Program-made: the position numbers and the translations under genes | Shown: positions 11,593 through 33,859 of the stretch, piece after piece | Layout of the letters: each line of letters begins with the position of its first letter | Position numbering within the stretch: position 1 is the first letter of the stretch | Assembly: GCA_016199265.1 (NCBI GenBank) | Contig: JACQGX010000389.1 | Span: forward strand, 1 to 37,763 | Length of the DNA stretch: 37,763 nt | Reading direction: 5' to 3' | Source: Chloroflexota bacterium | GTDB taxonomy: Bacteria > Chloroflexota > UBA11872 > UBA12225 | Notes under the pieces: generated by a model | Databases searched by the model: none | Seen by the model: only the letters and a program-made list of their open reading frames with translations | Told to the model about the DNA's origin: nothing

Positions 11593-12447
11593 CTATCCGC
11601 TGTTGGCGGCGGCGATGGCGGCCGTGAGGCCGCGGTAGCTCATCGCGGCGGCTTCCTTGGGTGGGCGGGGCGCGCGGGGCGTGCCGTCGAGCTCGACCAT
11701 GAACCAGCCGTCGAAGCCGGCGTCCTTCAAGCCGCGGAACATCGTGGCGAAGTCGATCACGCCCGAGCCCACCGGCACGTACCCGGCGTAGCCGGTGGGG
11801 TCCTCGACCGTCCCGTCTGGCAGGCGCTTGACGGGGGAGCCGCCGTAGTCCTTGACGTGGACGTGGGTGACGACGTCGCGGTACCTGCCGACGACCTCCA
11901 CCGCATCGCCGCCGGCCTGGGCGATCTGCCCGGTGTCCGGCCCGAAGCCGCAGGCGCGCGGATCGAGCGCCTCGACCACCATGGCGATCTCTTCCGGCTT
12001 CTCGACCGGCGTACCGGTGTGCGGATGCAGCGAGGTACGCAGGCCCAACTCGTCGCGGATGCGCGCGCCAAGCTCATTGAGCGTCCGCGCTAGACCGGCG
12101 TACTCCTCGGGTGAATACGACTCCTTCTCGCGTCGCTGGCAACTCACGACGATCGTTTCGGCCCCGACCTCTTTGCTCCAACGCGCCCACTTCATCACCT
12201 GCTCGATATCCTCGGCCGCGCGAGCCGGATCGATGTACGTGCGGGCGCAGTACGACGCAGCGTACTTGAGGCCGTGTCGGGCAATCAGGTCCTTGAAGGC
12301 CGGCGCCCCGCCGGGGTACTGCTCGATCACGTGGCCAAACGTCTCGAAGGCGGTGAAGCCAACGGCCGCGACGTCGGCCACCTTCTCTTCCACCGGCTGG
12401 CTCGGCCAGGTGATACCGGTATGTCCGATGCGTTCAGGATCAAGCAT
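11593..12447 (-). CDS. Sugar phosphate isomerase/epimerase-like TIM-barrel protein
   Basis: The ATG at 12447 is chosen because AAGGAGG sits nine bases upstream; the ORF start at 12495 has no site. The 284-residue product has the xylose isomerase-like barrel pattern: HTGITWPSQPVEEKVADVAAVGF, the ETIVVSCQRRE strand, LRTSLHPHTGTPVE with a metal-ligand-type His, CGFGPDTGQIAQAGGD, VTHVHVKDYGG and DGWFMVELDGT. These match inosose dehydratase/IolE- and IolH-like enzymes, which act on sugar or inositol derivatives with a divalent metal. It is the last gene of the leftward operon, 82 bases after the substrate-binding protein gene. Confidence 0.85.
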   Translation of the reverse strand: MLDPERIGHTGITWPSQPVEEKVADVAAVGFTAFETFGHVIEQYPGGAPAFKDLIARHGLKYAASYCARTYIDPARAAEDIEQVMKWARWSKEVGAETIVVSCQRREKESYSPEEYAGLARTLNELGARIRDELGLRTSLHPHTGTPVEKPEEIAMVVEALDPRACGFGPDTGQIAQAGGDAVEVVGRYRDVVTHVHVKDYGGSPVKRLPDGTVEDPTGYAGYVPVGSGVIDFATMFRGLKDAGFDGWFMVELDGTPRAPRPPKEAAAMSYRGLTAAIAAANSG

Positions 12448-12529
12448 ATCTCTACCTCCTTGAAGTAAGACGAATGACGTAACACGAACTGCCAACTCGA
12501 TTCATTTCCCAAGCCGGCTTCTGGCGCTT

Positions 12530-14017
12530 CTACAAATACTGTCGCCACTTGTCGATCCACGCCTTGGCCTGTGCTTCGCCCTGCTGCAGTGCCTCACGCA
12601 CGCTCCGCTTCCCCTGGAGAGCATCGTTGACGATGCCGGCCACGATCGTCTGGATCTCGGAGTTACCCGGTACCGGCGGCAGCCAGTGCGAGTGTGGCAC
12701 TTCGTCGATGAGCACCTTGCGTGTGGGGTCCTTCTGGAGATAAGCCGCGCTGCTGGCGACCGACCGGCGCGACGGGATGCGGTCCAAGTCCTCGGAGAAT
12801 CGCAGAATGTGTTCCGGTTTCATGAGATGTTCGATCAGCGCCCAGGCGGCCTCGCGCTGCTTGCTCTGCGGCGCAATTGCCAGCGCTGTCCCGCCCTGGA
12901 GACCCGAACGCTTACCACCCTTGGGCACCGGCAAGGGGGCAACGTCGTACTTGGTCTCTGGAAAGTCCCGGCGGAGCGTCGCCATGATGGTGTGGGCATC
13001 CATCTGCGTCGCGATGCGGCCGCTGCCAAAGTTCCACCCGACGTTCCGGACGGTAACCGCACCGGCGACCTCTTGCTGCACCTCGGCCAGCGCCTGCCAG
13101 CCGCCGTGCAGATCCACAAAGCGCTTCATGAACTCCAGCGCGCGGATGCCCTGGTCGCCGCCAAACGCGGGCTGGAAGTCGGCCGTGAAGTAGTCGCCGC
13201 CCAACTGACGCAGGTGCATCAGCCAGGTGACAACGCCGCCATTGTGCCAGGTAGGGTGGTAGCCGACCCGATCGACCTTGCCGGGCGTTGCCCCGGTGCG
13301 CATCGCCTTGCGGGCGACGACCTCCAGGTCGTCCCACGTCTTGGGTGCCTCCGCAGGGTTCAGCCCGACCTCCCGCCACAGGCTGTCATTAAGGAAGAGG
13401 ACCCAGACACCGGTGGAGTGGGTGATCCCGTACAGCTTCCCCTTCCAGCTTGCGTCGGCGATGTGAGACCCCCACATATCCTCCCGCTTGAGCGCCTGCG
13501 ACCGCTTCACGTATTCGTCGAGGGCAACCGCGGTACCGTTGACCGCCAACTCAGGGATCGCGTTTCTGGACGCCAGGTAGAGGTCGGCGATTTCGCCGCC
13601 GATGGCGGACGCGTACAACTTTTCGATGTGCTGCGTCACGCCGCCGGGCAAGATGTCCTGAACGTCGAGATCCAGTTGGGGATGCAGCTCACGAAAAGAT
13701 CGGATCTGTGCCGCGCCGATGCCTTCGGTGAAGCGGGAAAACGAACCGGACTGTGACCAGAACGTCAATTTGCCGGTCAGCTTTGCGCTCTTGGCCGCAC
13801 CGGTAGTGGTCACGGCTTCTCCCGAGCCCCCGGCGCCACCGGATCCACCGGCGCACGCAATTACGACGCCGCTCGCCAATCCGGCCGCGCTCGCACCAAA
13901 CAGCCCCCGTCGGGTTCGGTACGCCGCCACTATCGCGCCGGCACGCGCGTTGACACGGGCCGAATCCACTCGGCTGTCACTTGTGCCGCCGGCCGCGTTA
14001 TCTCGCGTGATCACCAT
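12530..14017 (-). CDS. ABC sugar-type substrate-binding lipoprotein (Tat leader)
   Basis: The ATG at 14017 follows GAAGGAGGAT. The 495-residue protein has a long N-terminal arm, a twin-arginine leader (RTRRGLFGASAAGLASG) and a lipobox ending at Cys55 (GVVIAC), so it should be exported folded and lipid-anchored. The mature part fits family 1 extracellular solute-binding proteins: KLTFWSQSG, ADLYLASRNAIPELA, LYGITHSTGVWVLFLN, NPAEAPKTWDDLEVVARK, GGTALAIAPQSKQREAAWALIEHL. It would deliver a sugar-like ligand to a membrane permease, but no permease or ATPase gene is nearby. The gene lies between the cyclase-family and isomerase genes and is probably co-transcribed with both. Confidence 0.9.
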   Translation of the reverse strand: MVITRDNAAGGTSDSRVDSARVNARAGAIVAAYRTRRGLFGASAAGLASGVVIACAGGSGGAGGSGEAVTTTGAAKSAKLTGKLTFWSQSGSFSRFTEGIGAAQIRSFRELHPQLDLDVQDILPGGVTQHIEKLYASAIGGEIADLYLASRNAIPELAVNGTAVALDEYVKRSQALKREDMWGSHIADASWKGKLYGITHSTGVWVLFLNDSLWREVGLNPAEAPKTWDDLEVVARKAMRTGATPGKVDRVGYHPTWHNGGVVTWLMHLRQLGGDYFTADFQPAFGGDQGIRALEFMKRFVDLHGGWQALAEVQQEVAGAVTVRNVGWNFGSGRIATQMDAHTIMATLRRDFPETKYDVAPLPVPKGGKRSGLQGGTALAIAPQSKQREAAWALIEHLMKPEHILRFSEDLDRIPSRRSVASSAAYLQKDPTRKVLIDEVPHSHWLPPVPGNSEIQTIVAGIVNDALQGKRSVREALQQGEAQAKAWIDKWRQYL

Positions 14018-14034
14018 GCCGGTATCCTCCTTCG

Positions 14035-14814
14035 TCATTCGTCATGAACGATCGCCACCGCCCGCACCGGCGCCGCCGAGGCGCCGCGCCACTTGATGGG
14101 GAGCACACTGACGGTGAACGAATGGTATGGCGGCGGGATCAGGTGCAGATTGCACAGGTTTTCCAGGTGATAGTACTCGCGCTCGAGCATCACCCGGTGC
14201 GCCTCCCAGAACTTGTTGCGCTCGAACATCGCCGGCACAGGTGGGTCGAAGCCCACCGCATCGATGCCCATCATCTTGATGCCGCGATCGAGGAGCCAGT
14301 GCACCGCTTCCTTGGTCATGCCTGGGTGGTCGGTCAGGTACCGCTTTTCGTCGCGGTACTTCGCCGCGTCGGTGCGCAGCAGCACGATGTCGAGCGGCTT
14401 GAGCCGGTATTCGATCTTGTGCAGTGCCGCTTCGAGGTCGTCCGACCAGATCTCGTCGCCCGGCTGTTTGGCGGTCAAATCGAGCACGACGCCGTCGCCA
14501 TAGCAGTACTCGAGCGGAATACCCTCGGCCCGCGGCGCCTCGGGGTTGACGTGGCCCCACGAATCGAGGTGTGTGCCGACGTGATCGCCGGTGACGATCA
14601 TACAGTGGTTGGGCAGGTGGGTGATGCCCAGCACATCGGTGCCCATGCTGCGCGCCATCTGCTGGTGATCCTCCATCTCCACGATCACCGGCTTGGCGAC
14701 GCTGGGGTAGACGACCATCCCCTGGTACACCTCGAATGAGAGGTCGACGATGCGCGGCCGCTTCCGCTGTGCCGTTGGTTGTGCTTGAGTAGGAACCGGG
14801 CCGAGACGAGACAT
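14035..14814 (-). CDS. Cyclase-family (kynurenine formamidase-like) metal hydrolase
   Basis: The 259-residue protein contains HVGTHLDSWGH at residues 78-88, the HxGTHxDxxxH metal-binding signature of the cyclase/formamidase family. The family-typical RIVDLSFEVYQGMVVYP start, DGVVLDLTAK and DIVLLRTDAAKY strands, and a late GIDAVGFDPP are also present. Relatives hydrolyse N-formylkynurenine, isatin or cyclic amides/lactones using Mn or Zn. In a sugar operon a lactone- or ester-opening role is plausible (inference). It starts two bases after the MDR dehydrogenase stop and ends 17 bases before the binding-protein start, so it is a clear operon member. Confidence 0.85.
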   Translation of the reverse strand: MSRLGPVPTQAQPTAQRKRPRIVDLSFEVYQGMVVYPSVAKPVIVEMEDHQQMARSMGTDVLGITHLPNHCMIVTGDHVGTHLDSWGHVNPEAPRAEGIPLEYCYGDGVVLDLTAKQPGDEIWSDDLEAALHKIEYRLKPLDIVLLRTDAAKYRDEKRYLTDHPGMTKEAVHWLLDRGIKMMGIDAVGFDPPVPAMFERNKFWEAHRVMLEREYYHLENLCNLHLIPPPYHSFTVSVLPIKWRGASAAPVRAVAIVHDE

Positions 14815-14816
14815 CG

Positions 14817-15797
14817 CTAGTTCCCCATATCGAATGTGACTTTGATTGCTTCCCGGCGGCGCAGGAGGTCGATTCCCTTGTCGAACTCCTCGATAGGAAT
14901 CTCGTGGGTGAGGAGCGGCTTCACATTGACCTGGCCGCTGACGAGCAGGTGCCGGGCGTACTTCCCGGGCCGGCCGGCGGGCGTACGCGTGTACTCGATC
15001 GTCGTGCCGCGGCGCCGGGCCGCCTGCGGCACGCGGAAGTCGGCCTCCGGCACGCTGAAGATGATCAATCGTCCGGCCGTGTGCTCGAGGTCACCCTCGA
15101 TCGCCGCCGGCACGCCGGAACAGTCGACGCTGAGCGTGAACTCGTCCTCGCGGAGATCGGCCCAGTCCTTCGATCCCGGCCGGACAGCGCGGTCGGCGCC
15201 GAGCGACACCGCCAGCTCGCACCGATCCGGTTGGACGTCGATCGCGGTCAACGATTCGGGCCCGAGCGTCTTGAGCGCCTGGAGCATCATCAGGCCGGCG
15301 GGGCCCATCCCGGAGACGGCGACGCGCTGCCCGGTAAGATCGCCCGCCCTCACCACACCCTGGCCGACGCAGCTCAGCATCTCCAGCATCGCCATTTCGC
15401 GCCAAGAGAGCCCCTCCGGAAACGGCAAGACCGAGCGCTCGTGCGTTGCGTAGAACTGGACGTAACCGCCGTAGGCCCGCCCGGAGGGGCGGAATGACCT
15501 CGTACCCGGCGGAGAACCCCAGTACGCGACACGGTCGCCGACCTGCACCGTCGTGACTTGGTCGCCGCGCTCAACGACGACGCCGGAGAGCTCGTGGCCG
15601 GGGCTGCCCACCGGGTAGGGATAGATCGGGTGCCCGGCCCGGCCGAAGAGGTCGATGCCGTCCCAGACGGTGAGGTCCCAGTGGGTGCAACTGTTGATCG
15701 CCTTGATCTCGACGATCACTTCGTCCGCGTAGGGTTCCGGCCGGGGCACGTCCACGATCTCGAAGCGGCCCGGCCGGGGGATCTGTAAGGCCTTCAT
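14817..15797 (-). CDS. Zinc-type alcohol/sugar dehydrogenase-like MDR protein
   Basis: The ATG follows AGGAGGAAAGAGACG. The 326-residue protein has the MDR layout: an N-terminal GroES-like domain with VGSPGHELSGVVVERGDQV (GHE motif), then a Rossmann domain (RVAVSGMGPAGLMMLQALKTLG) with a discriminating Asp in TAIDVQPDR that suggests NAD. The catalytic-zinc region reads NSCTHWDLTVWDG. The four-cysteine structural zinc loop is absent; that stretch reads SFRPSGRAYGGY. It is the first gene of the leftward operon, so the pathway probably begins with oxidation of a polyol or sugar. Its promoter (15843-15871) carries a putative GntR operator on the -10 box. Confidence 0.85.
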   Translation of the reverse strand: MKALQIPRPGRFEIVDVPRPEPYADEVIVEIKAINSCTHWDLTVWDGIDLFGRAGHPIYPYPVGSPGHELSGVVVERGDQVTTVQVGDRVAYWGSPPGTRSFRPSGRAYGGYVQFYATHERSVLPFPEGLSWREMAMLEMLSCVGQGVVRAGDLTGQRVAVSGMGPAGLMMLQALKTLGPESLTAIDVQPDRCELAVSLGADRAVRPGSKDWADLREDEFTLSVDCSGVPAAIEGDLEHTAGRLIIFSVPEADFRVPQAARRRGTTIEYTRTPAGRPGKYARHLLVSGQVNVKPLLTHEIPIEEFDKGIDLLRRREAIKVTFDMGN

Positions 15798-15841
15798 CGT
15801 CTCTTTCCTCCTGTGCGCCTCGCCAGCAGTTATGCCAGGTC

Positions 15842-15852
15842 GATTATCGATA
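15842..15852. promoter_or_regulatory. Putative GntR operator, copy 1
   Basis: GATTATCGATA with the palindromic core TATCGATA. The identical 11-mer recurs at 15971-15981. This copy covers the -10 box of the leftward promoter, so a bound regulator would block RNA polymerase. Confidence 0.6.
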
Positions 15853-15871
15853 GTAGGACGCGAGCTGTCAA
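15843..15871 (-). promoter_or_regulatory. Sigma70-type promoter of the leftward catabolic operon
   Basis: The minus strand reads TTGACA, 17 bases, GATAAT: a perfect -35 and a five-of-six -10 box. The dehydrogenase ATG at 15797 lies about 45 bases downstream. The -10 is embedded in operator copy 1. Confidence 0.65.
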
Positions 15872-15928
15872 GTGCTTCGGCGGTTACGATCGACTTTGCT
15901 GGCGAATGTCATTGGTGCGCAGGGTATC

Positions 15929-15958
15929 TTGACTTCGACCATCGGCCTGTCGTATACG
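15929..15958 (+). promoter_or_regulatory. Promoter of the gntR gene, near-leaderless
   Basis: TTGACT, 18 bases, TATACG. The start codon begins at 15969, ten bases after the -10 box, so the transcript would have almost no 5' leader. No ribosome-binding site is visible before this ATG, which agrees with leaderless translation. Operator copy 2 overlaps the predicted start point. Confidence 0.5.
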
Positions 15959-15968
15959 TAGAAGCGGC

Positions 15969-16832
15969 ATGATTATCGATAACGAGCGCACCGACTGCCG
16001 GCCGGCGGTACGGCGCTCGCTGCCGGTGCGGGTGCGTGAGGCCATCGAAGAGCAGATCCTGACCGGCGGGCTGCGCGAGGGCGACCAGATCGTCGAGTAC
16101 CAGCTCGCCCGCCAGATGGGGATTAGCCAGACGCCGGTCCGCGAAGCGCTGCGCACGCTGGAACGGGATGGGCTGGTGGTCACGCTGCCGCACCGAGGCA
16201 CGTTCGTCCGCCGCGTCACACGCCGCGAAGCGGCCGAGCGCTATTCCCTGGGGATGGAGTTAGAGGCCTTTGCGGCGCGGCTGGCGATGCCCAAGCTTTT
16301 GGAAGACGACTTTCGCCGGCTGGAGCAGATCATCGACGAGATGGCCGCGGCCGCCGATACGGCGCGGCGGGAGTTGCAGGAGTTGCAGGAGCTGCAGGAG
16401 CACCAGGAGCACCAGGGGCCGGCCGCACCGGCGCCGCACGCCGAAGACGTGGCCTTTGCGCGGAGCGTCGAGCTGAATGTGGCTTTTCACCGGTACCTGG
16501 TAGAGCGTGCCGAGCACGAGCACCTCCTGAGAGCGTGGCTCTCGGTGAACCCGCTCAACTGGCGCTTCGTGACCTATACTCGCCTGCTCAACCCCGATCC
16601 GGTGGAGTTGGCGGAGCGGCACCGCTCGCTTCTCGCGGCGTATCGCACCGGCGATCAGGTGCTGGCTGCCGCTGTTATCCGGCAGCATATTTGGGAGGTG
16701 GCGGAGCAAGTCTTGCCGAACATTCCAGACGAACCCGCACACTCGTTGAGTGCGCCCAACTTGCCGCGCGCGCCGAGGAACGGTAACGGCGCCGCCCGGC
16801 TCAATGGCACGGCATCGAGCCGTACTGGTTAA
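15969..16832 (+). CDS. GntR-family regulator, FadR/FCD subfamily
   Basis: The 287-residue protein has an N-terminal winged helix (RVREAIEEQILTGGLREGDQ, then LARQMGISQTPVREALRTLERDGLV, residues ~20-75). A helical FCD ligand domain follows, with metal-ligand candidates in NVAFHRYLVE, AERHRSLL and RQHIWEVAEQ. Such regulators usually repress catabolic operons until a sugar acid or similar ligand binds. A tandem repeat encodes ELQELQELQEHQEHQ in the middle of the FCD domain, an unusual insertion. The C-terminus adds a ~35-residue low-complexity tail. Position, divergence from the dehydrogenase operon and the twin operators argue for autoregulation and control of both flanking operons. Confidence 0.9.
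   Translation: MIIDNERTDCRPAVRRSLPVRVREAIEEQILTGGLREGDQIVEYQLARQMGISQTPVREALRTLERDGLVVTLPHRGTFVRRVTRREAAERYSLGMELEAFAARLAMPKLLEDDFRRLEQIIDEMAAAADTARRELQELQELQEHQEHQGPAAPAPHAEDVAFARSVELNVAFHRYLVERAEHEHLLRAWLSVNPLNWRFVTYTRLLNPDPVELAERHRSLLAAYRTGDQVLAAAVIRQHIWEVAEQVLPNIPDEPAHSLSAPNLPRAPRNGNGAARLNGTASSRTG
15971..15981. promoter_or_regulatory. Putative GntR operator, copy 2
   Basis: An identical GATTATCGATA overlaps codons 1-5 of gntR. With the following A it makes the perfect 10-bp palindrome TTATCGATAA. Binding here would block the regulator's own transcription. Confidence 0.6.
16371..16415 (+). repeat. Five tandem 9-bp units inside gntR
   Basis: GAGTTGCAG, GAGTTGCAG, GAGCTGCAG, GAGCACCAG, GAGCACCAG. 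The units are in frame and encode (ELQ)3(EHQ)2. Unit number could vary by slippage without a frameshift. Confidence 0.85.
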
Positions 16833-16896: not shown

Positions 16897-18252
16897 ATGA
16901 AAGACATATTGGAGGGTCCGCAAACCCGCGGACAGACGCGGCGGGGTGTCGTTGGCGCCGCTGGAGGCGTCATTGGCGCGGCGCTGCTAGCTGCCTGCGG
17001 CGCGCCGGTCGGCAGCGGCGAAGAGGCGCAGAAGGCCCGGCAGCCGGTGAACCTCACCACCAACATCCAGTCGCCGGCCAGCACCCAGTGGGGAGCTTAC
17101 GAGGCCGCCGATCGGGCGATCCGGGAGAAGTACCCCTGGCTGCGGATGGAATACCAGGGCGGCTCGTCGTCCTCATTCGAGGCTATGGGTAAGCTGGTCG
17201 CCCTGGCAGCGTCGGACAGCCTGCCGGACATGTTCTATGCCCAGGGCACGCAGATCCAGTTTTACATCAGCAAGAAGATCGCCGTCTCGATGGCGCCCTA
17301 CCTCAACAGGGACAAGGCGTTCGACCTGAACGACTTCCCCAAGGTCGCCATCGACATGTACAGCCGGGGCGGCCAGGTGTACGCCATCCCGTACGACCAC
17401 GGCCCGCAGATGCTGTGGTACAACGCCAACCTGTTCAAGAAGCACGGTGTACAGCCGCCAACGTCCAAGTGGACGTGGAATGATGTCCTAGAGGCGGCGA
17501 AGAAGCTCACCGTCGAGGGGCAGCAATGGGGGATCGTCAACAACGGCCCCACCGCCGCCTGGATTATGCCCAGCTACTTCGGTCCCTGGGGTGGCTCCTG
17601 GGTCGACGATACGGAAACCAAGACTGGCATCAACGGCGCCAACTCCGTTGCCGCGATGCAATACTGGATGGATCTCTTCTTCAAGCACAAAGTAGCGCCC
17701 GTACCCGGCACGACCCAAGGCGATCTGTACCTGGAGGGCAAAGCCGCAATGGTCTTTGGCGGCCCCTGGAGCTACCGCGGCTGGATCGGCAAGCTGTCCT
17801 TCGAGTCGCCCATTGCCGACTGGCCGATCGGTCCTGCCGGCAAGCGGATCAGCGCCTCGATGGGCTCCGGGTATCCCATCAGCGTCAACAGCAAGCACCG
17901 CGACGAGACGTGGTTGTATGAATCCGAGCTCCTGGGCAAGGACATGAACCGATCGGTGATGGGGCAGTTCGTCAAGACCGGCTTCGGCACGCCGGTTCGC
18001 TTCTCGATGATGAAGCAGTTCGAGAAATCGGAGTTCGCCATGCCCAACGTCCAGATCGTCGCCCCGGCTGGCTCGTACTCGGTCATCGGCCGGCCCATCT
18101 CGCCCATCAAGCTGGACCTCGACAAGGTCTGGAGCGAGGAGCGCGCCAAGCTGCTCAAGCAAGAAGTCTCGGTCAAGGACATGCTCGATACGGTGGCGCG
18201 CCGCATTCAACCGTTCCTGGACCAGAACAAAGGCTGGGACGCGACCAAGTAA
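16897..18252 (+). CDS. ABC substrate-binding lipoprotein (Tat leader)
   Basis: The ATG at 16897 follows AAGGAGAGG and is preferred over the longer ORF that starts inside gntR. The 451-residue protein begins with a twin-arginine leader (TRRGVVGAAGG) and a lipobox ending at Cys34 (LLAAC). The mature region matches solute-binding family 1: LRMEYQGGSSSSFEAMGKLVALA, LPDMFYAQG, YAIPYDHGPQMLWYNANLFKKHG, WTWNDVLEAAKKL, YLEGKAAMVFGGPW, and a C-terminal QEVSVKDMLDTVARRIQPFL. It follows gntR by 64 bases, so the regulator and binding protein are probably co-transcribed. Its ligand is unknown; a sugar is most likely. Confidence 0.9.
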   Translation: MKDILEGPQTRGQTRRGVVGAAGGVIGAALLAACGAPVGSGEEAQKARQPVNLTTNIQSPASTQWGAYEAADRAIREKYPWLRMEYQGGSSSSFEAMGKLVALAASDSLPDMFYAQGTQIQFYISKKIAVSMAPYLNRDKAFDLNDFPKVAIDMYSRGGQVYAIPYDHGPQMLWYNANLFKKHGVQPPTSKWTWNDVLEAAKKLTVEGQQWGIVNNGPTAAWIMPSYFGPWGGSWVDDTETKTGINGANSVAAMQYWMDLFFKHKVAPVPGTTQGDLYLEGKAAMVFGGPWSYRGWIGKLSFESPIADWPIGPAGKRISASMGSGYPISVNSKHRDETWLYESELLGKDMNRSVMGQFVKTGFGTPVRFSMMKQFEKSEFAMPNVQIVAPAGSYSVIGRPISPIKLDLDKVWSEERAKLLKQEVSVKDMLDTVARRIQPFLDQNKGWDATK

Positions 18253-18353: not shown

Positions 18354-19715
18354 ATGGCCGTCGATTCTCCCACGGTATCGAGTAATGGCAAGACACGGCG
18401 ACGCGTAATCGCGTACGGGGCCGGAGCGGCGTTGCTGGCGGCGTGCACGCCGGGAGCAGCCAGTACCGAAGGACGGCAGACCGCGGCCAGCGCCTGCCGT
18501 TCAACCCTGGAGTTCTACACGCCGTTTGCCAGCACGACGGTGCAGTACCAGGGCTTCCAGGAGGTGATCACGGCGTTCATGCGCCAGCGTAGCGGCTGTA
18601 GCGTCGAACAGGTGCCGCAGGCGGGTGCCGGCGGCGTGCAAGAGAAGCTGACCGCCGCGCTGGCCGGCGGCGATCCCCCCGCTCTGACCGTCATGCCGCC
18701 GGGCAACGTCTCCACCTGGTCGGCGCGCGGGCTCATCGCGCCGGTAGACGACCTGTTCAAGCGCGACCGGCTCAACGGCGGCGACTTCCCGGTGCCCTTG
18801 TGGAAGCCGATGAGCCACAGAGGCAAGGTGTGGTTCCTGCCGCTCTTCGCCAACGCCGACTTCGTGCTGCACTGGAACAAGGGTCACTTCCGCGAAGCTG
18901 GCCTCAATCCGGACAAGGCCCCGGAGACCATCGCGGACCTGGACAAGGTGATCCCGCAACTCACCCAAGAGCAAAGCGGCGACCTGGTCCGCCTTGGCAT
19001 GCAACCCTGGGACATCTACGGGCTGGGCAATACGATCCAGGCGTGGGGCTACGCCTTCGGCGGCGTCTTCTACGACGAGGCGAAGGAAGTGCTGACCTTT
19101 ACCCACCCGCGCATCCAGCGCGCCGTCGAGTGGTACACCGGGTGGGCCCGCCGGCTGAGTGTGGACCGCGTCGCCCGGTTGCGCCAGTCGGCCGCCCCGC
19201 CACCCGGGGCGCACTTCTTCGCCACCGGCCGGATCAGCATCGCGCCGATGACGTCGCCCGCGCTCCGCGCCACCCTGCGGCACGACCCGGCACTCCAGAT
19301 CGGCGCTGGGCCAATGCCCGGCGAGCCGCCGGGGAAAACGGGAACCGTCACCATCGGCGGCCAGATGATCTCCGCTGTGCCGGGCGCCAAGCGCGTCGAG
19401 GCGTGGGATTTCATGAAGTTCATCGGCGCCTCTGACGAGGGGACATCGATCATGGCGCGCACCGCCGGCATCCCCGGCTGGCTCAAGTCCCCCGGACTCA
19501 GCGAGGTCGCCAAGGATCCGCTGCAGAAGGCGTACGTCGACGGCCTGCGGCGGGCGCAGTCGGTGCAGCTCGGCTACTACGCGCCGTTCGCCCTCAACCT
19601 CACCCCCATTCAGGAGGTGATCGACGGCAAGCGGGGTGTCCGCGACGCGCTTGAGGCGATCAACCGCGAGGCGAACCAGTCGCTCACCGAGTTGCGGCGG
19701 CAACTGGGGAAATAG
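18354..19715 (+). CDS. ABC substrate-binding lipoprotein (Tat leader)
   Basis: The ATG follows AAAGGAGAGAGC. The 453-residue product has a leader with consecutive arginines (TRRRVIAYGAG) and a lipobox ending at Cys31 (LLAAC). The mature part is a family 1 solute-binding protein: STLEFYTPFAS, QEKLTAALAGGDPPALTVMPPG, VWFLPLFANADFVLHWNKGHF, FHEVGLNP-like FREAGLNPDKAPETI, GAKRVEAWDFMKFIGASDEG, and IQEVIDGKRGVRDALE. It is only distantly like the preceding binding protein, so the two may bind different ligands or different forms of one ligand. No permease gene adjoins it; an SDR gene follows after 50 bases. Confidence 0.9.
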   Translation: MAVDSPTVSSNGKTRRRVIAYGAGAALLAACTPGAASTEGRQTAASACRSTLEFYTPFASTTVQYQGFQEVITAFMRQRSGCSVEQVPQAGAGGVQEKLTAALAGGDPPALTVMPPGNVSTWSARGLIAPVDDLFKRDRLNGGDFPVPLWKPMSHRGKVWFLPLFANADFVLHWNKGHFREAGLNPDKAPETIADLDKVIPQLTQEQSGDLVRLGMQPWDIYGLGNTIQAWGYAFGGVFYDEAKEVLTFTHPRIQRAVEWYTGWARRLSVDRVARLRQSAAPPPGAHFFATGRISIAPMTSPALRATLRHDPALQIGAGPMPGEPPGKTGTVTIGGQMISAVPGAKRVEAWDFMKFIGASDEGTSIMARTAGIPGWLKSPGLSEVAKDPLQKAYVDGLRRAQSVQLGYYAPFALNLTPIQEVIDGKRGVRDALEAINREANQSLTELRRQLGK

Positions 19716-19765: not shown

Positions 19766-20557
19766 ATGGCGGAAGGCAAACTCGCTGGGAGGGTAGCGCT
19801 GGTCACCGGTGCGAGCCGGGGCATTGGCCGGGCCATTGCCGCGCGGTGCGCGCGGGAGGGGGCGGCGGTGGCGGTGAATTACATCACCGGTCCCGAACCG
19901 GTGCAGGGCAAAGACAACCGCGCCGACGCCGAAGCGCTGGTCGCGGAGATCCGCGGCGCCGGCGGCCGGGCGACCGCCGTCGAGGCCGACGTCTCGAACG
20001 GCGAACAGGTGCAGCGCGTGGTGTCGCGCGTTGCCGAAGAGCTCGGCACGGTCGACGTGCTGGTCAACAACGCCGGCATCGAGACGATCATTCCCTTCAT
20101 GGAAATGACCGAAGAGCAGTACCAGCGCGTACTCGACGTGAACCTCAAGGGCGAGTGGCTCTGCGCGCAGGTGGTCGTCCGCCAACTCGTCGCCGAGCAC
20201 AAGCCGGGAGCGATCGTCAACATCGCGTCGATCCAGTCGGGCATGGCGCTGCCGGGCCGCAGCCACTACGCGCCCTCCAAGCGCGGCGTCGAAGCCCTGA
20301 CGCGCAACCTGGCCGCCGAGCTGGCCCCACACAACATCCGCGTCAACTGCATCAACCCCGGCCTGATCGCGACCGACATGACCGACTGGGTCATGAAGGA
20401 CGAGCAGATCCTGCCCATCATCCTCGACAAGATCCCCCTGCACCGTGCGGGCGAGCCCGACGAGATCGCCAAAGTCGCCGTCTTCTTGGCCAGCGATGAT
20501 GCCTCGTACGTCACCGGGCAGTGTATCTACGTCGACGGCGGGTGGGTTGTGACGTAG
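19766..20557 (+). CDS. SDR-family oxidoreductase (glucose 1-dehydrogenase-like)
   Basis: The 263-residue classical short-chain dehydrogenase has TGASRGIG (cofactor site, residues ~14-21), NNAG (101-104), and catalytic Ser155, Tyr168 and Lys172 in IASIQSG...SHYAPSKRG. A C-terminal GQCIYVDGGWVVT is typical of 3-oxoacyl reductase/glucose dehydrogenase-like members. A short insert between the first two strands (TGPEPVQGKDNRADAEAL) is longer than usual. The cofactor preference is not clear. It probably oxidises a sugar or polyol delivered by the neighbouring binding proteins. It starts after GGAGAGATAAG and likely shares a transcript with the binding-protein genes. Confidence 0.92.
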   Translation: MAEGKLAGRVALVTGASRGIGRAIAARCAREGAAVAVNYITGPEPVQGKDNRADAEALVAEIRGAGGRATAVEADVSNGEQVQRVVSRVAEELGTVDVLVNNAGIETIIPFMEMTEEQYQRVLDVNLKGEWLCAQVVVRQLVAEHKPGAIVNIASIQSGMALPGRSHYAPSKRGVEALTRNLAAELAPHNIRVNCINPGLIATDMTDWVMKDEQILPIILDKIPLHRAGEPDEIAKVAVFLASDDASYVTGQCIYVDGGWVVT

Positions 20558-20692: not shown

Positions 20693-21394
20693 ATGCCACG
20701 ACCGACGGCGCTGCTAATCATGGGCGGTGCCGACTACCACAATACGCCCGAGCACTACGAGCTGCTCACGGGGCTGCTCGCCGGACCCGCCGGCCTGAAC
20801 GTGACCGTGACCGACGACTTCCTGGGACAGACCAAAGAGAGCTTGTCTCAGTACGACCTGCTGGTGCTGTGGGCGACGCACGGTCAGGCGCCTGCCGAGC
20901 CGGTACACGCCCTATTCGACGTCGTGCGGCACGGTACGCCGCTGCTCGGCCTCCACGCCGCGCCGTATAGCGTACGGATGGTCGAGGGAGGACCGGAGGC
21001 CATCGGCAGCTCCTACATTAGGCGCTTTCCCCATCTGCCGTACCAGGGCATCACCGTCAACATCCTGGATCGGGAGCATCCCATCACGGCCGGCATGGAG
21101 GACTTCCGCATTTCGGACGAGCTGTACTGCTTGGAGGATCTTGGACCGGATGTGCACGTGCTGGCCAGCTACGACGGCCGGACGGCGAACGCGCCATACC
21201 GGGGTGAACCCAGGCCGCAGCATGACGAGGCGCACTCCTGGCGGATGCAGCAGCCGCGAGCGCCGCTGGTCTACGTGAGGCAGCTCAGCGCGGGGAAGAT
21301 TTGCGTCAACGCGCTGGGGCACGACGGCGCCGCGATTTCGAATCCAGGTTTCCGGCAGTTCGTAGTACAGGCAGCGAAGTGGCTGCTCTCGTAG
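20693..21394 (+). CDS. ThuA-like domain protein
   Basis: The 233-residue protein has the class I glutamine amidotransferase-like fold of ThuA: PTALLIMGGADYHNTPEHYELL, QYDLLVLWATHG, GTPLLGLHAAPYSV, HPITAGMEDFRISDELYCLE, VHVLASYDGR and KICVNALGHDGAAISNPGFRQFVVQAAKWL. ThuA proteins take part in trehalose and related disaccharide use, in the 3-keto-sugar route; the exact chemistry is debated. There is no leader, so it is cytoplasmic. It is the last gene in the rightward sugar run and lies 135 bases after the SDR gene, with a hairpin repeat between. Confidence 0.88.
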   Translation: MPRPTALLIMGGADYHNTPEHYELLTGLLAGPAGLNVTVTDDFLGQTKESLSQYDLLVLWATHGQAPAEPVHALFDVVRHGTPLLGLHAAPYSVRMVEGGPEAIGSSYIRRFPHLPYQGITVNILDREHPITAGMEDFRISDELYCLEDLGPDVHVLASYDGRTANAPYRGEPRPQHDEAHSWRMQQPRAPLVYVRQLSAGKICVNALGHDGAAISNPGFRQFVVQAAKWLLS

Positions 21395-25684: not shown

Positions 25685-25834
25685 CAACACAAGCAGCGGT
25701 GCACGCTATATTGGCGACAACTTTGCATACAATCGTGCGCGCAGATGGCGTACGGCCGCCCTCTATACCACCCCGTGTGAGCACATGACTGCTGACGGCT
25801 GACGGCTGACTGAGTGATTGACGGGACAAACGGT

Positions 25835-26560
25835 ATGCGCACACCTGACACGAACGAGCTCGATACGACCACGCGTCGAGAGCCAAGAGAGCCCGACCTG
25901 GCGACACGCGCCTACGACGGCATTCGGGAAGCGATTCTCACTATGTCGTTTCAGCCGGGCCAGCAGTTGCAGGAGGTGGCGCTGGCGCACTGGCTGGGCA
26001 CGAGTCGGACGCCCGTCCGCGAGGCAATTCGGCGGCTGCAGAGCGAGGGGTTGGTCGAGAGCTCGTCGTCGCGCGGCGTCGTCGTTGCGCAGGTCTCAAT
26101 CGACGACGTCGAGAACGCTTATCTCGTGATCGAAGTGCTCGAAGGCCTCGCCGGCCGGCTCGCTGCCGAGCGCCTGACCGACGAGGGCGCCATCGGCTTG
26201 CGGCGCGTGCTCGACGAGCTACAGCACGCCGCCGCGGCCGCAGATCTCGAGCGCTGGACGCAGCTCGACGCCGAGCTGCACGACACCATCCGTGCCATCG
26301 CCGCCAACCCCAAACTCAACCAGGTAGCGAATCTCGTGTATCCCGTGATCGAGCGGGTGCGGAGCATCTACTTGCGCGAGGGGCACGAGCCCGATCAGGT
26401 GGCGATCGCGACGGCCGACCACTGCGTGATCGGCGAAGCGATTCTTGCTCGCGACGCCACCCGTGCCGAGGCACTTTCGCGGCAGCTCTTCGCCAAGGCT
26501 GGAGCCGATAACGTTCGGCTGCTCAAGCGCTGGGTGTCGCCGCTGCGGCGGAGTTTTTGA
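25835..26560 (+). CDS. GntR-family regulator, FCD subfamily
   Basis: I choose the ATG at 25835; a GTG at 25814 is possible. No strong ribosome site is visible. The 241-residue protein has the winged helix (YDGIREAILTMSFQPGQQLQ, then LAHWLGTSRTPVREAIRRLQSEGLVE) and an FCD domain with LDAELHDTIRAIAANPKL and ATADHCVIGEAIL. The last usual metal-ligand His is not obvious; that helix reads LSRQLFAKAG. Such regulators control sugar-acid and amino-acid use. It sits between family A and a downstream dehydrogenase-aminotransferase-hydrolase set, and probably governs both directions. Confidence 0.88.
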   Translation: MRTPDTNELDTTTRREPREPDLATRAYDGIREAILTMSFQPGQQLQEVALAHWLGTSRTPVREAIRRLQSEGLVESSSSRGVVVAQVSIDDVENAYLVIEVLEGLAGRLAAERLTDEGAIGLRRVLDELQHAAAAADLERWTQLDAELHDTIRAIAANPKLNQVANLVYPVIERVRSIYLREGHEPDQVAIATADHCVIGEAILARDATRAEALSRQLFAKAGADNVRLLKRWVSPLRRSF

Positions 26561-31113: not shown

Positions 31114-32300
31114 TGGCGGACGACGTGCCCGAAGCGCAGCTCGTCCGTCTGCTGAGCGATCTCGTGGCGATCGAGAGCGTCAATCCAGCGTATCCAAGCG
31201 GTGAACGCGGCGAGGGAGCGATGGCCGCCTTCGTCGAGGACTACTGCCGCCGGCTGGGGCTCGACGTGAGTCGCCAGCCGGTATTGCCGGGCCGCGACAA
31301 CGTCCTGGCCGCGCTGCGTGTGCCCGGCGCCCGGCGTACGCTGCTCTTCGAGGTCCACATGGATACCGTGGGCCTGGATGGGCTCGGCGGAGAGGGCCTG
31401 CAGGCGGCGGTGCGCGACGGGCGGCTCTACGGCCGCGGCGCGTGCGACGCCAAAGGTGCCTTGGCCTCGATGCTGGCCGCGCGCGAGCTGTTGCTCGCGC
31501 GCCGGAACGAGCTTGGAGTGAACGTGCTCTTGCTGGCCTCGGTCGACGAGGAATACCAGTACCGCGGCATCCTGAGGTTCATCGATTCGATCCCTGGCGA
31601 TCCGTCGGTCGATGCGGCCGTCGTCGGCGAGCCGACCGAGTTGCGCGTGGTCGTCGCGCACAAGGGCTGCGTCCGGACACGCATTACCACCGTTGGCCGC
31701 GCGGCGCACAGCTCACGCCCTGAGGAAGGTATCAACGCCATCGAGCACATGGCCGGCGTCGTCGCCGCCTTGCGCGAGCACCGCCGCACGATAGCCGAGC
31801 GGCGCCACCCGCTGGTGGGAAATCCGACGCTCAGCATCGGACGTATCTGGGGTGGTACCGCGGTGAATATCGTCCCCGACCGATGCACGATCGAGATCGA
31901 CCGTCGCACCATTCCCGGTGAGAATGCTGCCGGGGCGCTGGCCGAGATCGACGCCGTGCTCGCCGGTTTGCGAAGGAAGGATGGGAGTATCATTGTCAAG
32001 CGAGAGGAACCGTTTGTCGCCGATTGGGCGCTCGACACGCCCGTCGACACCGCCGTCGTGCGGGCGGCGGCGACCGCCTGCCGCGATACCGGAGTACCCG
32101 GCGGACCGGTCGGCGTCGCCTACGGGTCGGACGCGAGCAAGCTGTGGGCGTTACGCGGGATACCGAGCATCGTGCTCGGCCCGGGCTCGATCGCGCAGGC
32201 GCACACAGACGACGAGTACGTGCCGGTGGCCCACCTCTCGCTCGCGGTGCAGGTCTACGCGCGGACCGCCATGCACCTGGCGGCGGCGATCAGCGAATAA
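31101..32300 (+). CDS. M20-family peptidase/deacylase (ArgE/DapE-like)
   Basis: The 399-residue protein has the M20 metal-binding residues: His86 and Asp88 in EVHMDTV, Asp117 in CDAKGA, and Glu150/151 in SVDEEYQ. It also has a later GEPTELRVVVAHKG, a GRAAHSSRPEEGINAIEHM dimerisation-domain motif, and a terminal GPGSIAQAHTDDEYV with the last metal His. Such enzymes cleave N-acyl or peptide bonds in acetylornithine, succinyl-diaminopimelate and carboxypeptidase G2 substrates. Here a role in removing an acyl or amino-acid group from the imported compound is plausible. AAGGAGA abuts the ATG; a GTG four codons later (31113) is an alternative start. Confidence 0.9.
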   Translation: MAKVVADDVPEAQLVRLLSDLVAIESVNPAYPSGERGEGAMAAFVEDYCRRLGLDVSRQPVLPGRDNVLAALRVPGARRTLLFEVHMDTVGLDGLGGEGLQAAVRDGRLYGRGACDAKGALASMLAARELLLARRNELGVNVLLLASVDEEYQYRGILRFIDSIPGDPSVDAAVVGEPTELRVVVAHKGCVRTRITTVGRAAHSSRPEEGINAIEHMAGVVAALREHRRTIAERRHPLVGNPTLSIGRIWGGTAVNIVPDRCTIEIDRRTIPGENAAGALAEIDAVLAGLRRKDGSIIVKREEPFVADWALDTPVDTAVVRAAATACRDTGVPGGPVGVAYGSDASKLWALRGIPSIVLGPGSIAQAHTDDEYVPVAHLSLAVQVYARTAMHLAAAISE

Positions 32301-32362
32301 GGGCCTGGTCCGCTACCAGGCCGCTGCGTGTCAGGGTGTTAGTGTTACCTAAGGAGGTTACG

Positions 32363-33859
32363 ATGAGCAGTACTGATAACGTCAAGAGCGCCTTGGGCGT
32401 TCAGGTCACCGAGCCAGCGGCCGCCGCGCAGAACGCACGCGCTGGGGAGGTCGTGCGGTCAAGGTCGGGCCGTGTGACACGGCGTGCCTTCATCGGCACC
32501 GGGGCCGCCGCGGGAAGCGGCATCGTCCTGGCAGCGTGCGCACCAGGCGGTGGCGGACCGGCGTCAAGTGGGGGGAGTGGCAGCGCCCAGCCGATGGCCA
32601 AGAGCGTCAAAGGTGGAACGTTGTACTTTCTCGACCACACGCTGCAGCAGGCCGTGCGCGACGTCGTCGTCAAGCGCATCGCCGAGTTCGAGCAGAAGTT
32701 CCCGGGCACGAAGATCGAGCACGACGACGCCACGCCCGATAACTCCAAGAAGTTCCCGGTGCTTATCGCCGGTGGAACCTTCCCCGACGTGTCGGTGACG
32801 CACACGGCGTTCGTCGATCAGTATCCGTCCTTCATGGACATCACGCCGTACCTGGCCAGAGATAAGGAGGTGAAGATACCCGACTACTTCGCGGCGGTGC
32901 TCAACGCCTTCAAAGTCCCGGTCAACGGCACGCCGCGGCAGTTGGGCGTTCCGCGTGAGGCGCACGCGACGATTCTGTACTACAACCGCAACGCCATCCA
33001 GGCCGTCGGGCTCAAGGAGCCGACGAAGGACTGGACGCACCAGGACTTCGTCGAATACGGCCTCAAGCTGCGCGAGTGGACGAACGACCCGGCGACGGCG
33101 AAGTGGGCCATCTTCAACGGCACCGGCCTCGGCGGCGCCTCGGCCGGCTTGGCAACGTTCTGGTCGTTCGGCGCCGACTTCTTCAGCGAGGACGGCACCA
33201 AAGCCCTGATCGACCAGCCACAGGCGAGAGAAGCGTTCGAGTACATGCGCGACCTCGTGATCAGGCACCACATCGCGCCGTCGGCGGATGAGCACAAGGC
33301 CAGCGGCCTGACCGGCTCGTCCCAGGCGCTCTTCAACACCGGTCGGTACCTGATGTACGCCTGTAACCAGAACTGCTCGCCCACCACAGCCGGCGTCGAG
33401 ATGGGGTTCTCGTGGGACGTCATGGCGGTGCCGCAGGTGCCCGGCAGGAAGCGCGGCACGCGCCTCGCCGCCAACGCTTACGGTCTGCTGACGCAGGGCC
33501 AGAACAAGAATCCCGATCTGGGGTGGGAGTTCATCAAGTACATTGTCGGCGAAGAGGGGTCGAAGCAGCTCGTCCAGAGCGCGACGCTGTACATGTCGCA
33601 CAAGAGTGCTGCCGATACCTGGGTGGAGACGATGAGTCGTAAGGGTGGTGTCCGCAACGGCAAGGTCGTCGCCGACGTGCTCGACCAGTGGGCACGGCGC
33701 GAGCAGACGCTGCTCCCAGGCTGGGGCAAGGCGATGGCGCCGATCCACCGCGAGTGGGATGCGGTGCTCAACGGCAAGCGGTCAGTCGGCGAAATGATCA
33801 ACGTCGCCAAGGCGGAGGCCGAAGCGGCGCTCGCCGCCGAGCGGGCGGCGGCGCGCTAA
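32363..33859 (+). CDS. ABC substrate-binding lipoprotein (Tat leader)
   Basis: The ATG at 32363 follows AAGGAGGTTACG; the ORF track start lies in the M20 gene. The 498-residue protein has a long N-terminal arm, a twin-arginine leader (RVTRRAFIGTGAAAGSG) and a lipobox ending at Cys59 (VLAAC). The mature part is a family 1 solute-binding protein: GTLYFLDHTLQQAV, FPVLIAGGTFPDVSVTHTAF, HATILYYNRNAIQAVGLKEP, GSSQALFNTGRYLMYACNQN, and DLGWEFIKYIVGEEGSKQLV. It follows the M20 gene by 62 bases and precedes the DUF59 fusion gene, so it probably brings in the substrate of this locus. No transporter membrane genes adjoin. Confidence 0.9.
   Translation: MSSTDNVKSALGVQVTEPAAAAQNARAGEVVRSRSGRVTRRAFIGTGAAAGSGIVLAACAPGGGGPASSGGSGSAQPMAKSVKGGTLYFLDHTLQQAVRDVVVKRIAEFEQKFPGTKIEHDDATPDNSKKFPVLIAGGTFPDVSVTHTAFVDQYPSFMDITPYLARDKEVKIPDYFAAVLNAFKVPVNGTPRQLGVPREAHATILYYNRNAIQAVGLKEPTKDWTHQDFVEYGLKLREWTNDPATAKWAIFNGTGLGGASAGLATFWSFGADFFSEDGTKALIDQPQAREAFEYMRDLVIRHHIAPSADEHKASGLTGSSQALFNTGRYLMYACNQNCSPTTAGVEMGFSWDVMAVPQVPGRKRGTRLAANAYGLLTQGQNKNPDLGWEFIKYIVGEEGSKQLVQSATLYMSHKSAADTWVETMSRKGGVRNGKVVADVLDQWARREQTLLPGWGKAMAPIHREWDAVLNGKRSVGEMINVAKAEAEAALAAERAAAR

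Follow-up and report, generated by a model that had tools for sequence, protein, structure and literature searches.

The stretch of DNA analysed here (the window) is a contig of 37,763 nucleotides, C358, of a Chloroflexota assembly of 5.59 Mb in 430 contigs that is 77% complete, and two divergent sets of genes flank a short intergenic region in it. On the right lies gntR (15969-16832, plus strand), whose product carries an N-terminal GntR winged helix and a C-terminal FCD domain, with PF00392 and PF07729 both scoring above their gathering cut-offs; on these domains it is assigned to the FCD-domain (FadR) subfamily of the GntR family, and it is the proposed binder of the sites described below. 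On the same strand follow two solute-binding protein genes recognised by Pfam scan (16897-18252 and 18354-19715), an SDR dehydrogenase gene (19766-20557) and a gene for a ThuA-like protein (20693-21394), the last two having homologues in all three orthologous clusters treated below. The leftward operon (minus strand) starts with a zinc-type dehydrogenase gene (14817-15797; PF08240 and PF00107; 73-79% identical in two genera) and continues with those for a PF04199 'cyclase' hydrolase (14035-14814; 81-88% identical in three genera), an ABC solute-binding protein (12530-14038; Pfam scan) and a xylose-isomerase-like TIM-barrel protein (11593-12495; orthologues 71-83% identical in three genera). 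These enzyme classes point to sugar or sugar-acid breakdown. The window encodes four sugar ABC-type solute-binding proteins in all, the fourth at 32024-33859, and the Pfam scan of ORFs in the window turned up no permease gene. A second FCD-type GntR gene (25814-26560), followed by a Gfo/Idh oxidoreductase ORF, has no copy of the 11-mer described below nearby, and a DNA N6/N4 methyltransferase gene (PF01555; 8133-9299) is found about 6.5 kb left of the operators.

Reading of the intergenic sequence found two exact copies of the 11-mer GATTATCGATA, at 15842-15852 and 15971-15981, the two sites being about 129 bp apart and each close to its own operon. The left predicted operator (GATTATCGATA, 15842-15852, exact match) contains the core TATCGATA at 15845-15852, which does read as a palindrome, as the first-pass annotation had claimed, and lies on the −10 box of the leftward promoter. 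The right copy begins at the G that ends the gntR ATG (15969-15971); the operator there, GATTATCGATAA (15971-15982, exact match), spans codons 1-5 of gntR, and its core extends to the palindrome TTATCGATAA (15973-15982). The palindrome region of the left copy reads TTATCGATAG, and across the gntR divergons the left site is palindromic in this imperfect form, its shape being set in part by the −10 box. The leftward promoter (TTGACA-N17-GATAAT, 15843-15871, minus strand; TTGACA 15871-15866, GATAAT 15848-15843) matches 11 of 12 consensus positions and was the sole promoter-like match when 15700-16100 was scanned (shuffle mean 0.1). The coordinates therefore bear out what had been described there, namely one 11-mer covering both the −10 box of a near-perfect leftward promoter and the start codon of gntR. 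A rightward promoter driving gntR (TTGACT-N18-TATACG, 15929-15958, plus strand; TTGACT 15929-15934, TATACG 15953-15958), missing from that annotation, was recognised by eye and by conservation and scores below the consensus threshold of the promoter scan. Relative to it, the centre of the right operator lies at about +12.

With one mismatch allowed, just these two 11-mers matched in a scan of the window (shuffle mean 0.13), and shuffling of the intergenic region gave two copies of TTATCGAT in 2 of 20,000 trials. Genome-wide counts were obtained by pattern searches rather than by a full motif scan. In the whole assembly the 11-mer has four exact copies, compared with about 0.3 expected from base composition, and these form two pairs, each across a divergent promoter region, one in the window and one on contig C128 (9957 and 10254). 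The many random copies in coding DNA that the first-pass annotation had named as counter-evidence were thus not what the search returned. Allowing one mismatch in ATTATCGATAA added a single place in the genome, on C57. Further genomic matches to TTATCGATA (C57, C178, C243, C359 and C400), mostly inside genes and lacking a recognisable promoter pair, were rejected, as were additional ATTATCGATA matches in the related genomes G004 (C144) and G005 (C370), which resemble coding DNA.

In the C128 pair, the leftward promoter (TTGACA-N17-GATAAT) again bears the operator on its −10 box, and the rightward promoter (TTGACT-N17-TATACG) is followed by an operator centred 17 bp past the −10 box. A gene for a Gfo/Idh-type oxidoreductase lies to the left, and to the right a TIM-barrel isomerase-like gene precedes those for another oxidoreductase, sulfatases and solute-binding proteins. 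The right-hand operator at this locus has no start codon next to it; because this copy is non-coding, the start-codon overlap is inessential to operator function. In G004, the proteins closest to the TIM-barrel and oxidoreductase products of C128 are encoded in its gntR cluster (56-68% identity; TIM-barrel 67%, oxidoreductase 65%), and the genes of one G004 cluster correspond to two places in the present genome, with an operator pair at each. Since homologues of C128 genes sit in the G004 gntR cluster, gene content would tie the C128 sites to the GntR regulator independently of the motif. Both divergons also share the 13-base block TGTCGTATACGTA (15948-15960 in the window, C128:10233-10245), which surrounds the rightward −10 box, holds the palindrome CGTATACG (15951-15958 in the window) and occurs exactly nowhere else in the genome by pattern search; on C239, a copy with one mismatch stands without a visible partner site. 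Three sulfatase genes lie around the C128 pair (L005; 7012-8628, 12448-13941 and 16876-18429), a hint that this regulon may include the breakdown of sulfated sugars.

Three further genera of the family have gntR orthologues, 67-72% identical, namely G004 (AVDCRST_MAG77), G002 (YX3bin23) and G003 (CH-Oct18-156); known orthologues number just four, every one from metagenome assemblies. The three genera share much the same divergent gene set, with the cyclase and TIM-barrel genes on the left and gntR, SDR and ThuA genes on the right, and gntR directly adjoins the site pair in all four genera. In the three orthologous divergons both sites are kept, 115-127 bp apart, in intergenic regions that have otherwise mostly diverged, and shuffling each of these regions, as well as that of C128, gave two TTATCGAT copies in 0 of 20,000 trials. 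The left site is ATTATCGATAG in these three divergons and supplies, there and on C128, the −10 GATAAT of a TTGAC[AG]-N17/18 promoter. The right operator is likewise conserved in the three divergons and on C128, with a counterpart of the rightward promoter (TTGACn-N17-TATAnn) at the same place; the distance from the TATAnn −10 box to the right-site centre is 19-21 bp in G004, G002 and G003. In 4/4 genera the right site shares the reading frame of the gntR start, and in 3/4 the start codon (ATG or GTG) stands immediately 5′ of ATT ATC GAT (MIID). The −10 box lies just 6-11 nt upstream of the gntR start codon in the four genera, and a leaderless or nearly leaderless gntR mRNA is therefore likely.

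Within the family, the site pair is confined to genomes having a gntR orthologue and is absent from the five family genomes that contain no close one; among 400 genomes of the phylum, pair matches outside the family stayed at the background given by the reversed pattern. A second gntR match in G002 (L049, C10:256924-257472) is interrupted by stops in the matched stretch, has no operator nearby and was discarded. When the regions upstream of remoter GntR homologues were scanned for palindromes, they had no TTATNNATAA in common, and one TCATCGATGA was seen, in L034.

The operators overlap both promoters and are conserved with the regulator gene, which is the arrangement of an autorepressing divergon. 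We therefore favour, with a probability of about 0.84, the reading that the FCD-type GntR protein binds TTATCGATAA and represses its own gene, both divergent operons and the C128 divergon. The gntR product would bind the palindrome as a dimer; at the left site it would cover the leftward −10 box and keep RNA polymerase off, and at the right site, about +12 of its own promoter, it would block initiation or promoter clearance. Both divergent catabolic operons and gntR itself would thereby be repressed, the C128 divergon would be repressed in trans, and a pathway metabolite presumably releases the regulator. Both site positions suit repression, and looping between the sites, though possible, is not needed. 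The sites, the promoter-like sequences and the conservation of both are direct observations, and from them we infer the binder, the repression and the metabolite induction. The first-pass annotation had called this a complete repression and autoregulation layout; the layout gains support from the sites kept beside gntR in four genera, from the missing pair where the orthologue is missing and from the C128 divergon, while the word "complete" overstated it, as effector, binding and direction of regulation cannot be read from sequence.

Among the other explanations, the one that survives best, although we consider it improbable, is that the sites are operators of another regulator encoded elsewhere, such as a LacI-type protein or a GntR paralogue. 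LacI-type operators are often central-CG palindromes and the sites have such a central CG, and about 25 other GntR matches in the genome offer paralogues that could bind. Against this, the pair occurs in the family where the gntR orthologue does, gntR itself stands directly beside it in four genera, no GntR paralogue lies near both pairs, and BioR provides a GntR precedent for TTATMKATAA (PMC4494728). It is more doubtful still that the GntR protein, though binding the sites, activates transcription or represses on one side alone, and that the left copy is retained chiefly for its −10 function: this copy does coincide with GATAAT, which a promoter alone would conserve, but in four genera, as on C128, conservation over ATTATCGATA reaches 4 bp past that hexamer, and a −10 box or a position near +12 is a poor site for an activator. 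Least credible of all is that the CGTATACG palindrome within TGTCGTATACGTA in the rightward −10 region is the true operator and the 11-mers are secondary, for although the block is exact in both divergons and its GTATAC is similar to the GT/AC boxes usual in FadR-type operators, it is missing from the three orthologous divergons, where the TATA box alone remains, and on account of this lack of conservation the block seems to belong to a duplicated promoter.

The helix-turn-helix of the gntR product is compatible with binding by this protein. Gln54 occupies the position of Arg45 of E. coli FadR, which we take to be a G-contacting residue, and this agrees with, though it does not prove, recognition of an operator without the G that the usual box contains. 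In an alignment, Gln54 is present in 13/34 and Pro56 in 34/34 of the homologues compared, Gln54 occurring in some of the remoter GntR homologues too, so that these residues are consistent with the predicted operator but not specific to it.

Among the titles listed in literature searches with the operator string there was no regulator report. The common operator of the GntR FadR subfamily consists of TKGT/ACMA boxes, with exceptions that include BioR and NanR (PMC4494728). These boxes are not present in the conserved site TTATCGATAA; since BioR and NanR are listed as exceptions (PMC4494728), this does not exclude membership of the subfamily, and the predicted site would be an operator of a less usual GntR type for which there is precedent. 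BioR, the GntR/FadR-subfamily biotin repressor of Alphaproteobacteria, has the operator consensus TTATMKATAA (PMC4494728), and paired operators with autoregulation have been predicted for it (PMC4494728, PMC4554459). The site TTATCGATAA fits this consensus and its proposed binder is of the same family, whereas the centre is AG/CT in BioR operators and CG here, and BioR controls biotin genes in place of catabolic sugar-type operons; the genes scanned in the window cluster and on C128 included no biotin gene. Two bio-operon-linked GntR proteins, taken from plasmids and chosen as BioR comparators by gene context rather than from a named BioR record, align to the gntR product at 26-27% identity (E about 4e-15). 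TATMKATA sites lie near the bioB genes or the regulator gene of these comparators, among them TATCTATA 4 nt before the ATG of the Phyllobacterium bio-operon gntR. Their recognition helix reads SHVPVREAF, with His at the Gln54 position and thus likewise without Arg, compared with SQTPVREAL here; with this difference and the low identity, the gntR product would not be an orthologue of alphaproteobacterial BioR.

Among divergons of the GntR/FadR subfamily, those with separate double sites have each side governed by the site next to it (Suvorova et al. 2015, PMC4494728). The locus here likewise has a divergent regulator and structural operon and a pair of intergenic sites, one close to each operon, but unlike those divergons it lacks TKGT/ACMA, and the right site overlaps the regulator start codon. 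Such a GntR divergon, conserved and autoregulated through a BioR-like operator, would be an ordinary type of switch, and what is distinctive would be the CG centre, the coding overlap and the two-locus regulon. Tentatively, and at somewhat less than even odds, the right operator may be a conserved dual-use element, doubling as the first codons of a leaderless or nearly leaderless mRNA, and the regulator may define a CG-centred branch of BioR-like specificity whose regulon comprises two similarly built divergons. In a lineage of uncultured Chloroflexota, the locus gives a specific pairing of operator and regulator that is inexpensive to test, together with a small regulon, and it suggests a second GntR/FCD group that, as BioR does, uses TTAT-NN-ATAA rather than TKGT/ACMA, which helps to link helix residues to operator sequence.
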